This document shows positions 1-6,307 of a DNA stretch of 38,794 nucleotides, one piece after another. Positions within the stretch are counted from its first letter, which is position 1. Every line of letters begins with the position of its first letter. Made by a program: the position numbers and the translations under genes. Origin of the DNA: an uncultured Erysipelotrichaceae bacterium (GTDB taxonomy: Bacteria; Bacillota_I; Bacilli_A; Erysipelotrichales; Erysipelotrichaceae); contig CADABS010000023.1 in assembly GCA_902786245.1 (NCBI GenBank), forward strand, positions 1-38,794. Reading direction: 5' to 3'. The notes below the pieces were generated by a model. It did no database searches and was not told the DNA's origin. It worked only from the letters and a program-made list of their open reading frames with translations.

Positions 1-97
1 ACGATGGACACCCTTGAACTTGGCTAAGCCTTAGGGGTTACCACCCTTGGCTGGAGGTACCTTTCAACCTCCAAGATATGTGCCATGCCCGGCACAC
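1..97 (-). mobile_element. Group II intron, 5' fragment (class C-like), cut by window edge
   Basis: Read on the minus strand from position 97, the sequence starts with GTGTGCC and GGCATGG, then a GG..TGAAAG..CC element, a TTAGCCAAG block and CAAGGGTGTCC. These match in order what I recall of the 5' end (start of domain I) of group IIC introns such as the Oceanobacillus iheyensis one; GTGTG fits the GUGYG 5' boundary. It begins six bases after the terminator hairpin of the preceding gene, the known insertion preference of class C introns. The rest (domains II-VI and any reverse transcriptase/maturase) would lie beyond position 1. No protein-coding signal is seen in these bases. The identity rests on remembered consensus, not on a search. 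Confidence 0.72.
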
Positions 98-130
98 GTT
101 AAAAAGGCTCCGTCACAGGACAGAGCCTTT
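98..130 (-). terminator. Intrinsic terminator of the mannitol-type dehydrogenase gene
   Basis: A 12-bp stem (103-114 with 119-130, one G-U pair) closes a four-base loop. On the minus strand it is followed by a short T run that breaks off at AAC, where the intron-like sequence starts. The stop codon of the upstream gene is only three bases away. The truncated T tract fits an insertion inside or just behind the terminator. Confidence 0.85.
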
Positions 131-2123: not shown

Positions 2124-2426
2124 TATATTTTTCTCCTTCTCTCTTTCCTTCATTATCACCGTTTTAGGCGCAGGTTTCAACCGGATCTCTTCTCTGATCA
2201 GATGCTGCTTTTCGCTTCTTGCCATATGCTTGATCCGCCATTCCGCCTGCTGCGCCTCCTGCTTTGTCGCAAATTCCTGCGACCAGGCGATCCGCACCGG
2301 TTTATGGGTACGGGTATACTTCGCCCCTTTTCCCTGACAGTGCGCCTTGAAGCGCTTTTCCAGATCATTTGTCCAGCCGGTATACAGCGTACCGTCTTCG
2401 CATTCCAGTATATATGTCCAGTTCAT
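1746..2426 (-). CDS. GIY-YIG nuclease domain protein reading in frame into superoxide reductase
   Basis: One uninterrupted 226-codon frame. Residues 1-80 are a small GIY-YIG domain of the YhbQ/YazA type: YILECEDGTLYTGWTNDLEKR gives the motif (YIL...YTG) and the Arg, with KGAKYTR following; such proteins are normally 80-100 residues and stand alone. Residues 81-101 are a charged linker. From residue 102 a full-length desulfoferrodoxin follows without a stop. The linker DNA contains an AAGGAG ribosome binding site placed nine bases before the ATG of residue 102, so the second domain is probably also made on its own. The start overlaps the end of the upstream permease gene by four bases. Whether the full fusion protein is stable is unknown. 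A lost stop codon or an assembly error could equally explain it. Confidence 0.75.
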   Translation of the reverse strand: MNWTYILECEDGTLYTGWTNDLEKRFKAHCQGKGAKYTRTHKPVRIAWSQEFATKQEAQQAEWRIKHMARSEKQHLIREEIRLKPAPKTVIMKEREKEKNIMGKLKIVRCNGCGKIAVVLKDSACPTKCCGEPMEVLEANTTDAAQEKHVPAVTREGSRITVSVGSVDHPMIPEHYIEFIALETAKGFRIAYLNPEDKPCADFFAEEPVTAVYAYCNLHGLWKTEA

Positions 2427-5400
2427 TCCACGCTCTTGAGGCTTTCCACCATTTTGATCGAATGCAGACGCCTTGCCATGACGAAATCGACCAGGATGCT
2501 GAAGAACAGCGTCAGAACCAGCGATATGGCAAAGCTTGCCGGCATGATCGAGCGGCCGAACATGACATAATCCATTTCGACCATGCGCATGATGTAGTGA
2601 TGCAGAACATTGCCGACCGGCAGTCCGCAGACGGCACCGATCAGCGTCAGTACATTATTTTCCTTATATATGTAGTTCTCTACTTCCCGCCGCCGGAAGC
2701 CGAGCACCTTGAGCGTCGCGATCTCCCGCATCCGCTCGCTGAGATTGACATTGATCAGATTGCCGAGCACGACAAAGGCCAGCGACATCGATGACACGAT
2801 CAGGGTCCAGACGATCAGATCCAGTCCCTTGACCATGGTCCGGAAGTTCTCCAGCACCGCCTCGAAGAAGGCAATGCCTTCGATCTGTTCATATTCGACC
2901 AGCCTTCTCTGCAAGGCACTGGAGTCGCTGAGATCCTCCGAGAGACGCAGATGGAGACTGTGCGAACGCGGGGAAATGCCGAAAAGCTTTTTGTAGCAGT
3001 CCTGCGACATGAATGCATAGTGATTGATATACAGCTCGCAGATATCCCCGATCTTTACTTCGGCATATTTTCCGGTTTCGCCTTCCAGCCGGACCGTATC
3101 CCCTGCTTTCAGCCCGAGCAGTTCGCTGAGCTTTTCGCTGATGACGATTGCATCATCGCCCAGTTCGATCTTCGCTCCGCCGATCCGCTTGCGCAGATCA
3201 TAGCAGCGGCAGACATCTTCGCTGTTTTCATAGATTTCGACACTGACCGTCTCTTCTTTTTTCCCGGCTGCGATCTTGGCCGTATAGGAACCGATTGCGG
3301 TGATCTCTTCGATATCCGGATCGCTCTGCAGCTGTGCCAGCAGGCTGCTGCGTTCTTCTGCGCTCAGATTCTTCTTCAGCGAGACGCTGCCGTCAAAGCG
3401 GGATATTTCATAGAACTGCAGATCGACCATCCGGTTGATGGAATCGCGGATGCCGAAGCCTGTCACCAGCAGCGCAGCGCATCCGGCAACACCGGCGACG
3501 GTCATGAAGAAGCGCCGTTTATAGCGGAACAGGTTGCGCATCGTCACCTTCCAGGTAAATGACAGCCGGCTCCAGATGAATCCGACCCGCTCCAGCAGTG
3601 TCTTTCTGCCCAGTTTCGGAGACTTCGGACGCATCAGCTGGGATGGTACTTCCCGCATGTCTTTGCGGCAGGTCAGCCACGTCGTCAGTTCCATGCCGGC
3701 CAGGAATGACGCACCGGCAGACAATGCAAGATTCCATGGCATGAATACCCGGATCGGCGGCAGAACATACATCATCCGCCAGACATGATAGATGATGATC
3801 GGGAATGTCATCATGCCGAAGACGATACCGATCACGCCGCCCAGCAGGGTTGCGCTGCCGGCATAGATCAGATACTTGGACGCACACTGTCCTTCGGTAT
3901 AGCCCAGGGCCCGCAGGATGCCGATCTCGCCTCTTTGTTCATCGACCATCCTTGTCATCGTCGTCAGACAGACCAGGGCCGCAACAGCGATGAAAAACAG
4001 CGGGAAGATGTTTCCGATCGCCCGCATCTGGTCGACCGAACCGCGGTATGTCACCGTCGCATAATGGGAGGTGCTGCGGTCCAGTACCGTCCATTCGCCC
4101 GGTTCCAGCGCATCGATCTGCTCCCTTGCTTCATCGAGTTTCTTCTTTGCTTTTTCCAGTTCTTCGCGGCCTTCTTTTCTTGCTTTTTCCAGTTCAGCCC
4201 GGCCGGAAGCGAGTTCATTGACCGCATCATCGAGACGGCTGCGGTTGGCCGCAATCTCGGCGGCACCGTTGGAGAAGGCATTCTGCGCTTCATTCAGTTC
4301 TCTTTCCAGCTGCCGGTATCCTTCATCGATCTGCCGCTGTCCTTCATCGATCTGCGCTCTGCCTTCGGCCAGCTGCCTTTCCCCTTCGGCAATGCCGGCA
4401 TCGATCTGTCCGATCCCGTCCGATGCTTTCTGTATGACATCATCCAGTTCTTCCGGCGCAATGCCCTGGTCAGCCAGTGCATCGGTGATCTGCTTTCTTC
4501 TTTCAAGGAGCGTATCACGGGTTTCATGCAGACTCTGCAGACTTTCATCATAGGCACTGACCAGCGTACCCGCATCAGTGATGGATTCCCTGCCGCTGAT
4601 CTGCTGCAGCGAAGAAACAAGTTCATCGATCTGCGTATCCGCCATCTCCCGCAGAATCCCGGGACCGCCGCCCATGACGATTTCATGAAGGATCTGCCGC
4701 ACCGGTTCCGTATCGTATTTCTGCAGGATTTCATCTGCCTGGGCAGCCCGCTGCGAGGCATTGTCATAGCCCGCCTGAATGCCCTTAGGGGTTTCCGTAT
4801 CCGCTGCCGGGTCATAGCGCAGGATCTTTTCTTTGAGAATTTCAAGTTCCTCACTGTCGGCGGTTTCTTTGTTCTTGTCCAGGCTCTTCAGCAGTTTCTT
4901 TGTCTCTTCTGCCTGGAAATATGCATTGTCCGCAGCGATTTCCGCTTTCAGCGCTTCCCCGTCCGTCAGAAGTTCCTGCCAGACTTCTTCATCCGCCTCC
5001 GGCAGGACTTCCTGCAATTGTTCCGCCGCATCTGCCGCTTCGCGCATGCCGGATGTGATTTCGCTGATCTCCGTATCCTCCGGCAGAGTCCGGAAGATTT
5101 CCATCAGAACGCTGACCATCGGGTCTTCCAGCCCGGCAATGCCTTCTTCCACCTGGGGCAGTGCAGCGTCGATCTGTGCCAGACCGTCTTTTGCCTGCTG
5201 CAGCTGGGGAATGCTGTCCTCCAGCTGTTTTCTCTGTTTCAGAAGATCTTCTTTAGTCTTGGCAAAGTCGGCTTCCGCCTGCTGGAGTTTCCGCCGGTTT
5301 TCATCGACCAGGGCCTGGGCATCTGCCAGCTGCTGCAGCGCTTCCTGCCGTTTTCTCTCCATCAGCGCCATGCCGTCCGCCAGTTCCTGTTCCCCTTCAG

Positions 5401-6307
5401 CCAGTGCTTCTCTGCCTTCTTCGATTTCTTTTTCGCCGTCTGCGATCTCTTTTTCCGCATCGGCGATCTCTTCTTCAAACTGCTTCAGACCGTCTTTATA
5501 TTCCTGCAGTCCCTTCTGATATTCTTCTTCCGCTTCATCCGCGATCTCTTTTCTTCTGCGGTCCTGCCATTTCTCTGCCAGGGCTTCATAATCTTCCGCC
5601 GCATCTGCCACGGCATCGTCATATTCTTTCGAGAAGGAATACATCTCCTTCAGACCTCTGACCGTGATATTGACTTCGGTATAGTAGGAACTGTCAAATG
5701 CCTCCTGAGGCACATAGAGATAGGTATCGATATACTGGTTGGACAGGGTGCTGTTTTCCTTGGACATATTGAGATAGACCGGGGTATCGAGCAGACCGAC
5801 GACCGTTGCCTTTTCGATTTTCAGCGAATCATTGGAGGTTCCTTCAGGATAGGAAAAATACACCACGGAACCGATCGGGAAACCGCCCTTGATATCCGAG
5901 CCGCCCTCGGCCAGGGCTTCATCCGGCTTTTCCGGCATGCGTCCTTCCCGCAGGACCGGACGGTTGAGGGAACCGTTCTCCATCAATGCATGCACACGGG
6001 TGATCCGGGCCGAATCGCTGTCTGTACCGATCACATCCGCAAACCATGTCCCTTCTGCTTCCAGGGTATCCGGATGGCTCCGGATCGCTTCAAGATCCTC
6101 TTCTTCAAAGCCGTAATTCGAATATATCGTTATATCCTTGAGATTCTGTTCATCATTATAGAAATCCACGCTGCGGCCCATGACCAGAGAGGTTGCGGAA
6201 ACACCGACAAAGAAAGCCGTGCCGATGGCGACAATTGCCGTCAGTGAAAAGAACCGGCTTTTCGTCGATCGGATCATGCGCAGGATGTTCGTCCGGAATG
6301 TTCTCAA
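2423..6307 (-). CDS. FtsX-like ABC transporter permease with two long coiled-coil arms
   Basis: A 1294-residue membrane protein. A first membrane segment lies at about 19-41, followed by an extracytoplasmic domain. Two long Glu/Lys/Gln-rich coiled-coil arms lie at about 240-390 and 590-735, the latter built from EGRAQIDEGQRQ-like heptads. FtsX-type permease blocks occupy about 768-885 and 1170-1290, and another membrane segment is at about 932-952. This architecture is known in Bacillota as MacB/FtsX-family permeases that couple a separate ATPase to work outside the membrane. No ATP-binding gene is present in the window. The start is TTG, with GAGAGGG seven bases upstream and an in-frame stop just before; the ATG at codon 11 is the alternative. 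It is first in a unit with the GIY-YIG/superoxide reductase frame and the dehydrogenase. Cargo or target unknown. Confidence 0.85.
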   Translation of the reverse strand: MRTFRTNILRMIRSTKSRFFSLTAIVAIGTAFFVGVSATSLVMGRSVDFYNDEQNLKDITIYSNYGFEEEDLEAIRSHPDTLEAEGTWFADVIGTDSDSARITRVHALMENGSLNRPVLREGRMPEKPDEALAEGGSDIKGGFPIGSVVYFSYPEGTSNDSLKIEKATVVGLLDTPVYLNMSKENSTLSNQYIDTYLYVPQEAFDSSYYTEVNITVRGLKEMYSFSKEYDDAVADAAEDYEALAEKWQDRRRKEIADEAEEEYQKGLQEYKDGLKQFEEEIADAEKEIADGEKEIEEGREALAEGEQELADGMALMERKRQEALQQLADAQALVDENRRKLQQAEADFAKTKEDLLKQRKQLEDSIPQLQQAKDGLAQIDAALPQVEEGIAGLEDPMVSVLMEIFRTLPEDTEISEITSGMREAADAAEQLQEVLPEADEEVWQELLTDGEALKAEIAADNAYFQAEETKKLLKSLDKNKETADSEELEILKEKILRYDPAADTETPKGIQAGYDNASQRAAQADEILQKYDTEPVRQILHEIVMGGGPGILREMADTQIDELVSSLQQISGRESITDAGTLVSAYDESLQSLHETRDTLLERRKQITDALADQGIAPEELDDVIQKASDGIGQIDAGIAEGERQLAEGRAQIDEGQRQIDEGYRQLERELNEAQNAFSNGAAEIAANRSRLDDAVNELASGRAELEKARKEGREELEKAKKKLDEAREQIDALEPGEWTVLDRSTSHYATVTYRGSVDQMRAIGNIFPLFFIAVAALVCLTTMTRMVDEQRGEIGILRALGYTEGQCASKYLIYAGSATLLGGVIGIVFGMMTFPIIIYHVWRMMYVLPPIRVFMPWNLALSAGASFLAGMELTTWLTCRKDMREVPSQLMRPKSPKLGRKTLLERVGFIWSRLSFTWKVTMRNLFRYKRRFFMTVAGVAGCAALLVTGFGIRDSINRMVDLQFYEISRFDGSVSLKKNLSAEERSSLLAQLQSDPDIEEITAIGSYTAKIAAGKKEETVSVEIYENSEDVCRCYDLRKRIGGAKIELGDDAIVISEKLSELLGLKAGDTVRLEGETGKYAEVKIGDICELYINHYAFMSQDCYKKLFGISPRSHSLHLRLSEDLSDSSALQRRLVEYEQIEGIAFFEAVLENFRTMVKGLDLIVWTLIVSSMSLAFVVLGNLINVNLSERMREIATLKVLGFRRREVENYIYKENNVLTLIGAVCGLPVGNVLHHYIMRMVEMDYVMFGRSIMPASFAISLVLTLFFSILVDFVMARRLHSIKMVESLKSVE

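Follow-up and report, generated by a model that had tools for sequence, protein, structure and literature searches.

A probable class C group II intron behind a dehydrogenase terminator at a contig end of an Erysipelotrichaceae-like genome

Group II introns are mobile RNA elements that splice themselves. Those of class C in bacteria insert immediately behind rho-independent terminators (PMC8919778, which cites Robart et al. 2007 for this behaviour). Target recognition by group IIC introns combines a 5' DNA stem-loop with the EBS1-IBS1 and EBS3-IBS3 pairings and the structure of the RNP has been solved; in the cryo-EM structure EBS1 lies in the loop at the end of D1d and pairs with 4 nt of the target DNA (PMC10190682). 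We analysed a stretch of 38,794 nt (hereafter the window), which is contig 23 of a 102-contig assembly. Judged by the first gene of the window, the nearest named relatives are Erysipelotrichaceae / Solobacterium MAGs from rumen and gut. From sequence comparison we consider it very likely (about 97%) that bases 1-97 are the 5' portion of an ordinary class C intron, cut off by the contig end, behind a gene's terminator, and that the contig stops at base 1 because the intron is repeated in the genome, where the assembly collapsed no fewer than three near-identical copies.

The junction at the left end of the contig

The first gene of the window lies on the minus strand (134-1744) and encodes a 536-aa oxidoreductase of the mannitol dehydrogenase superfamily, fructuronate/tagaturonate reductase-like, with PF08125 and PF01232 above cut-off and sub-cut-off NCBIfam matches to fructuronate reductase and D-arabinitol dehydrogenase. 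The terminator hairpin at 103-130 (minus strand) belongs to this gene. Its arms (119-130 and 103-114) form a perfect 12-bp stem with a 4-nt CUGU loop, and the fold has an energy of -18.5 kcal/mol at z = -5.6, with 0 of 200 shuffles equally stable. The tail UUAAC follows at 102-98, and the gap between the end of the stem and the intron is 5 nt. Further along the same strand (2423-6307) we noted a large FtsX-like ABC-transporter permease of 1294 aa, for which the translation suggests a putative long coiled-coil insert.

Read on the minus strand, the junction runs ...AAAGGCTCTGTC CTGT GACGGAGCCTTT TTAAC and then directly GTGTGCCGGGCATGGCAC...; the 5' exon up to this point ends in ...GGAGCCTTTTTAAC. 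The presumed intron is represented by its first 97 nt (1-97, minus strand; GUGUGCCGGGCAUGGC...), which are cut by the contig end; they open with GTGTGCCGGGCATGGC and, after the tail, read GTGTGCCGGGCATGGCACATATCTTGG... from base 97 to base 1. The body of this copy, its EBS1 and its 3' exon fall beyond the contig end. GTGTGCC begins at base 97, and its first five letters agree with the GUGYG boundary at the 5' end of group IIC introns, as does the 12-bp stem, at a distance of 5 nt from the intron, with their insertion behind hairpins. The original prediction had described a 12-bp terminator hairpin, a T run broken by AAC and the GTGTGCC start, and all three are present. It had also joined the intron end to the terminator, which stands, but had spread this feature over 1-130; the intron part covers only 1-97 on the minus strand and the exon extends from 98 upwards.

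Homologues and copies of the element

An Rfam search with bases 1-400 alone returned nothing but chance matches, as the group II models set in deeper within domain I. RF02001 found no match across the own genome assembly, from which the body of the window copy is thus missing, and an exact 30-mer scan of genome_contigs found no match. The predicted group IIC identity is borne out by the homologues. Congener matches to the 97 nt are 92-97% identical, and homologues continue into Rfam group II models (RF02001; group-II-D1D4-3 and group-II-D1D4-1 with 42-136 bits, of which 60-136 bits for D1D4-3); the domain I-IV core is carried by the close homologues L010, L012, L164 and L166. The full-length copy L164, from a congener, is 95% identical to the window fragment across 96 nt. 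It comprises a terminator, the intron (107 to ~1975), a reverse transcriptase (RT) ORF at 612-1880 and, at 1887-1975, domain V; its 3' end is ...CTCCTACTCGAT. This copy scores 129.6 bits with RF02001, 48.9 bits with RF01998 and 44 bits with RF00029. Its RT/maturase of 422 aa contains PF00078 (RVT_1) and the GIIM maturase domain and reaches 416 bits with TIGR04416 (cut-off 300). The best PDB match was 7uim (8.8e-150, residues 2-416), followed by the GsI-IIC RT 6ar1. We take 7uim to be the Eubacterium rectale protein; in the PDB search its only label is group II intron RT/maturase.

Two further contigs of the own genome, C47 and C27, share 92 nt of the window fragment at their starts, without a mismatch and each behind a different terminator hairpin. 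This agreement is far beyond chance, and the break falls at almost the same point in all three contigs. A search with the L164 3' end, and only this search, detected the matching 3' ends: exactly three own contigs have the same 98 nt at their start or end (C54, L230 1-98; C51, L231 7872-7969 minus; C20, L232 1-98). They share 92% identity with domain V/VI of L164, finish in AT and all terminate in ...CCTCCTACTCGAT, then T, in three different flanks; a T as the first base of each flank would fit one shared EBS3-IBS3 base. The subfamily thus has three 5' and three 3' ends in this genome, all at contig ends, which points to a short-read assembler facing three near-identical repeats of ~1.9 kb. 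The genome therefore holds at least three near-identical copies, with the assembly broken in each, and the proposal that the contig ends here on account of a repeated intron agrees with this.

Synteny pairing matched the window contig with none of the 3' flanks on C54, C51 and C20, and the window exon with none of the own 3' flanks on C14, C44 and C65. The latter three were rejected as 3' ends of the window copy as they belong to other class C subfamilies: the 3' flanks of C14 and C44 go with the type found on C16, C91 and C6, and C65 probably belongs with a third type seen in genome G010. The own genome contains at least two such further subfamilies (C16, C91, C6, C14, C44, C65), most copies of which also lie at contig ends. 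At C6:65576-68289 (L196) a 5' fragment of ~200 nt from the second subfamily stands behind a terminator, followed by a putative glycosidase-like gene and other DNA and then by a 42-nt intron 3' end with 98% identity; this appears to be a split intron flanking other genes. The same contig encodes a 435-aa reverse transcriptase (C6:59323-60630, minus strand; L202 324-1631) that PADLOC assigns to RT_UG26 (DRT class) with 469 bits and that is a candidate defence RT. In the closed genome G070 we observed three short ORF-less class C derivatives, L158 (from about 200), L159 and L160 (both minus strand), with a common domain I deletion removing the EBS1 arm. L158 and L160 have a further junction in common, by which domain V/VI is lost, yet occupy different sites; they were either deleted before they spread or homogenized by gene conversion.

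At each of the three own 3' ends the sequence is CCGCCGTATACCGAACGGTACGTACGGGTGG, which has one G more than any congener copy of the subfamily that was checked. The additional G (GGGTGG) sits in the catalytic domain V helix, with ACGTACGGGTGG in the own copies versus ACGTACGGTGG, and folding places it as a bulge in the lower part of the helix at a cost of about 4 kcal/mol. We attribute to it that the own 3' ends fall below RF00029, whereas congener copies score 43-46 bits. Of the 3' end expected by the original prediction, the domain V/VI-like sequence and the final AT were thus recovered at contig ends of the own genome, but not a score above the model's threshold. The extra G is either an error of the assembly consensus or a bulged domain V that was recently amplified. 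Of the two, the consensus error is the simpler, as a single collapsed repeat path probably underlies all three contig ends. It is unlikely, if still worth stating, that the subfamily does carry, in each of its three copies, a bulged G beside the catalytic-triad region and yet spread to three sites; such a group II intron would tolerate a bulged catalytic helix, which would matter for ribozyme structure.

Target site and proposed mechanism

We compared 40 distinct 5' junctions of class C elements, gathered across the own and related genomes, with random positions. A simple hairpin directly upstream (at least 8 bp, ending at most 9 nt from the intron) was present at 38 of the 40 sites and at 398 of 7986 random positions (5.0%). 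An earlier, looser control was too permissive, with 53% or 27% of random positions accepted, and the strict one was used instead. The binomial P of 2e-47 overstates the difference, as the sites lack phylogenetic independence and coding DNA is included among the random positions, though the contrast is still plain. The expected insertion just behind a terminator stem is thus seen in the window and in nearly all collected copies.

For the pairing with the exon we used the 11 copies with a readable domain I, defining EBS1 as the 4 nt before CAACG and IBS1 as the last 4 nt of the 5' exon. EBS1 was fully paired in 7 of the 11 copies, and 36 of 44 possible pairs were formed, against 19.6 on average after shuffling (P about 1e-5, which is optimistic because the position of EBS1 was picked by inspection). 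By analogy with these relatives and the group IIC cryo-EM structure (PMC10190682), the putative IBS1 of the window copy would be TAAC (98-101, minus strand), adjoining the 98/97 junction, and predicts an EBS1 near GUUA. The sites on C47 and C27 read TTAC at this position. Among intron-free congeners with the orthologous gene, several carry a terminator-like hairpin in the corresponding position (e.g. L049, L053, L060 and L061). These hairpins are not homologous in sequence and would be analogous rather than allelic empty sites; a strict same-species empty-site allele was not found.

We propose that a class C intron retrotransposed directly behind the dehydrogenase terminator, in the same orientation as the gene. 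As judged from the family, the lariat intron RNA and the maturase would recognise the DNA hairpin of the terminator, EBS1 would pair with the 4-nt IBS1 that follows the stem (TAAC in this copy) and EBS3 with the base after it, and the intron RNA would reverse-splice into the hairpin strand and then be copied by its own RT. The genome itself shows the sequence identity, the site, the multiplicity and the matching 3' ends; D1-D4, maturase and domain V come from a close family member.

Alternative readings and comparison with known systems

The most serious alternative is that the window copy is a truncated, dead relic of which only a short 5' fragment is left at the site. Fragmentary class C copies do exist, as the own ~200-nt 5' fragment followed by unrelated sequence on C6 and the three derivatives in G070 illustrate. 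However, the 97 nt of the window match C47 and C27 over 92 nt without a mismatch, the contigs break at nearly the same place and the 5' ends of the subfamily equal the 3' ends in number (three each), and we therefore regard a relic as distinctly improbable. An assembly or binning artefact that mis-joined an intron end to the terminator might be suspected in an assembly of 102 contigs with the junction less than 100 nt from a contig end. As the exact anatomy of hairpin, short tail and GTGTG recurs at 38 of the 40 sites, this is very improbable.

We give practically no weight to the view that the shared bases are a conserved non-intron sequence common to several loci, such as a terminator-linked attenuator or a small RNA. 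It would agree with the position next to a terminator, but the homologues run into group II D1-D4, in the case of L164 also into RT and domain V, and this view is already refuted by the full-length homologues. The upstream flanks, which differ at every copy, likewise speak against it.

The cut-off class C intron remains our reading of the locus. In the gut and rumen Erysipelotrichaceae MAGs of this genus, class C introns repeatedly cause contigs to break, and GTGYG behind a terminator at the end of a contig is a good indication of such an intron. The closest described system is the E. rectale group IIC intron with its RT-maturase (PDB 7uim, 7uin; PMC10190682), which is alike in class and DNA stem-loop target and, as judged from the family members, in RT/maturase and a 4-nt EBS1-IBS1 pairing; in contrast, the host here is a rumen Erysipelotrichaceae-like MAG, the terminator sites are others and the own copies have the extra G in domain V. 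The GsI-IIC intron RT (PDB 6ar1) belongs to the same class C RT family (4.9e-113 with L164) and is more distant in sequence. Compared to the class C introns of Robart et al. (2007), in so far as PMC8919778 reports them, insertion behind the stem and orientation to the gene are the same and nothing of substance differs. The window adds one individual insertion of a well-known family whose mechanism and anatomy are not new, and it confirms the rule, already known, by which class C introns choose sites behind terminators.
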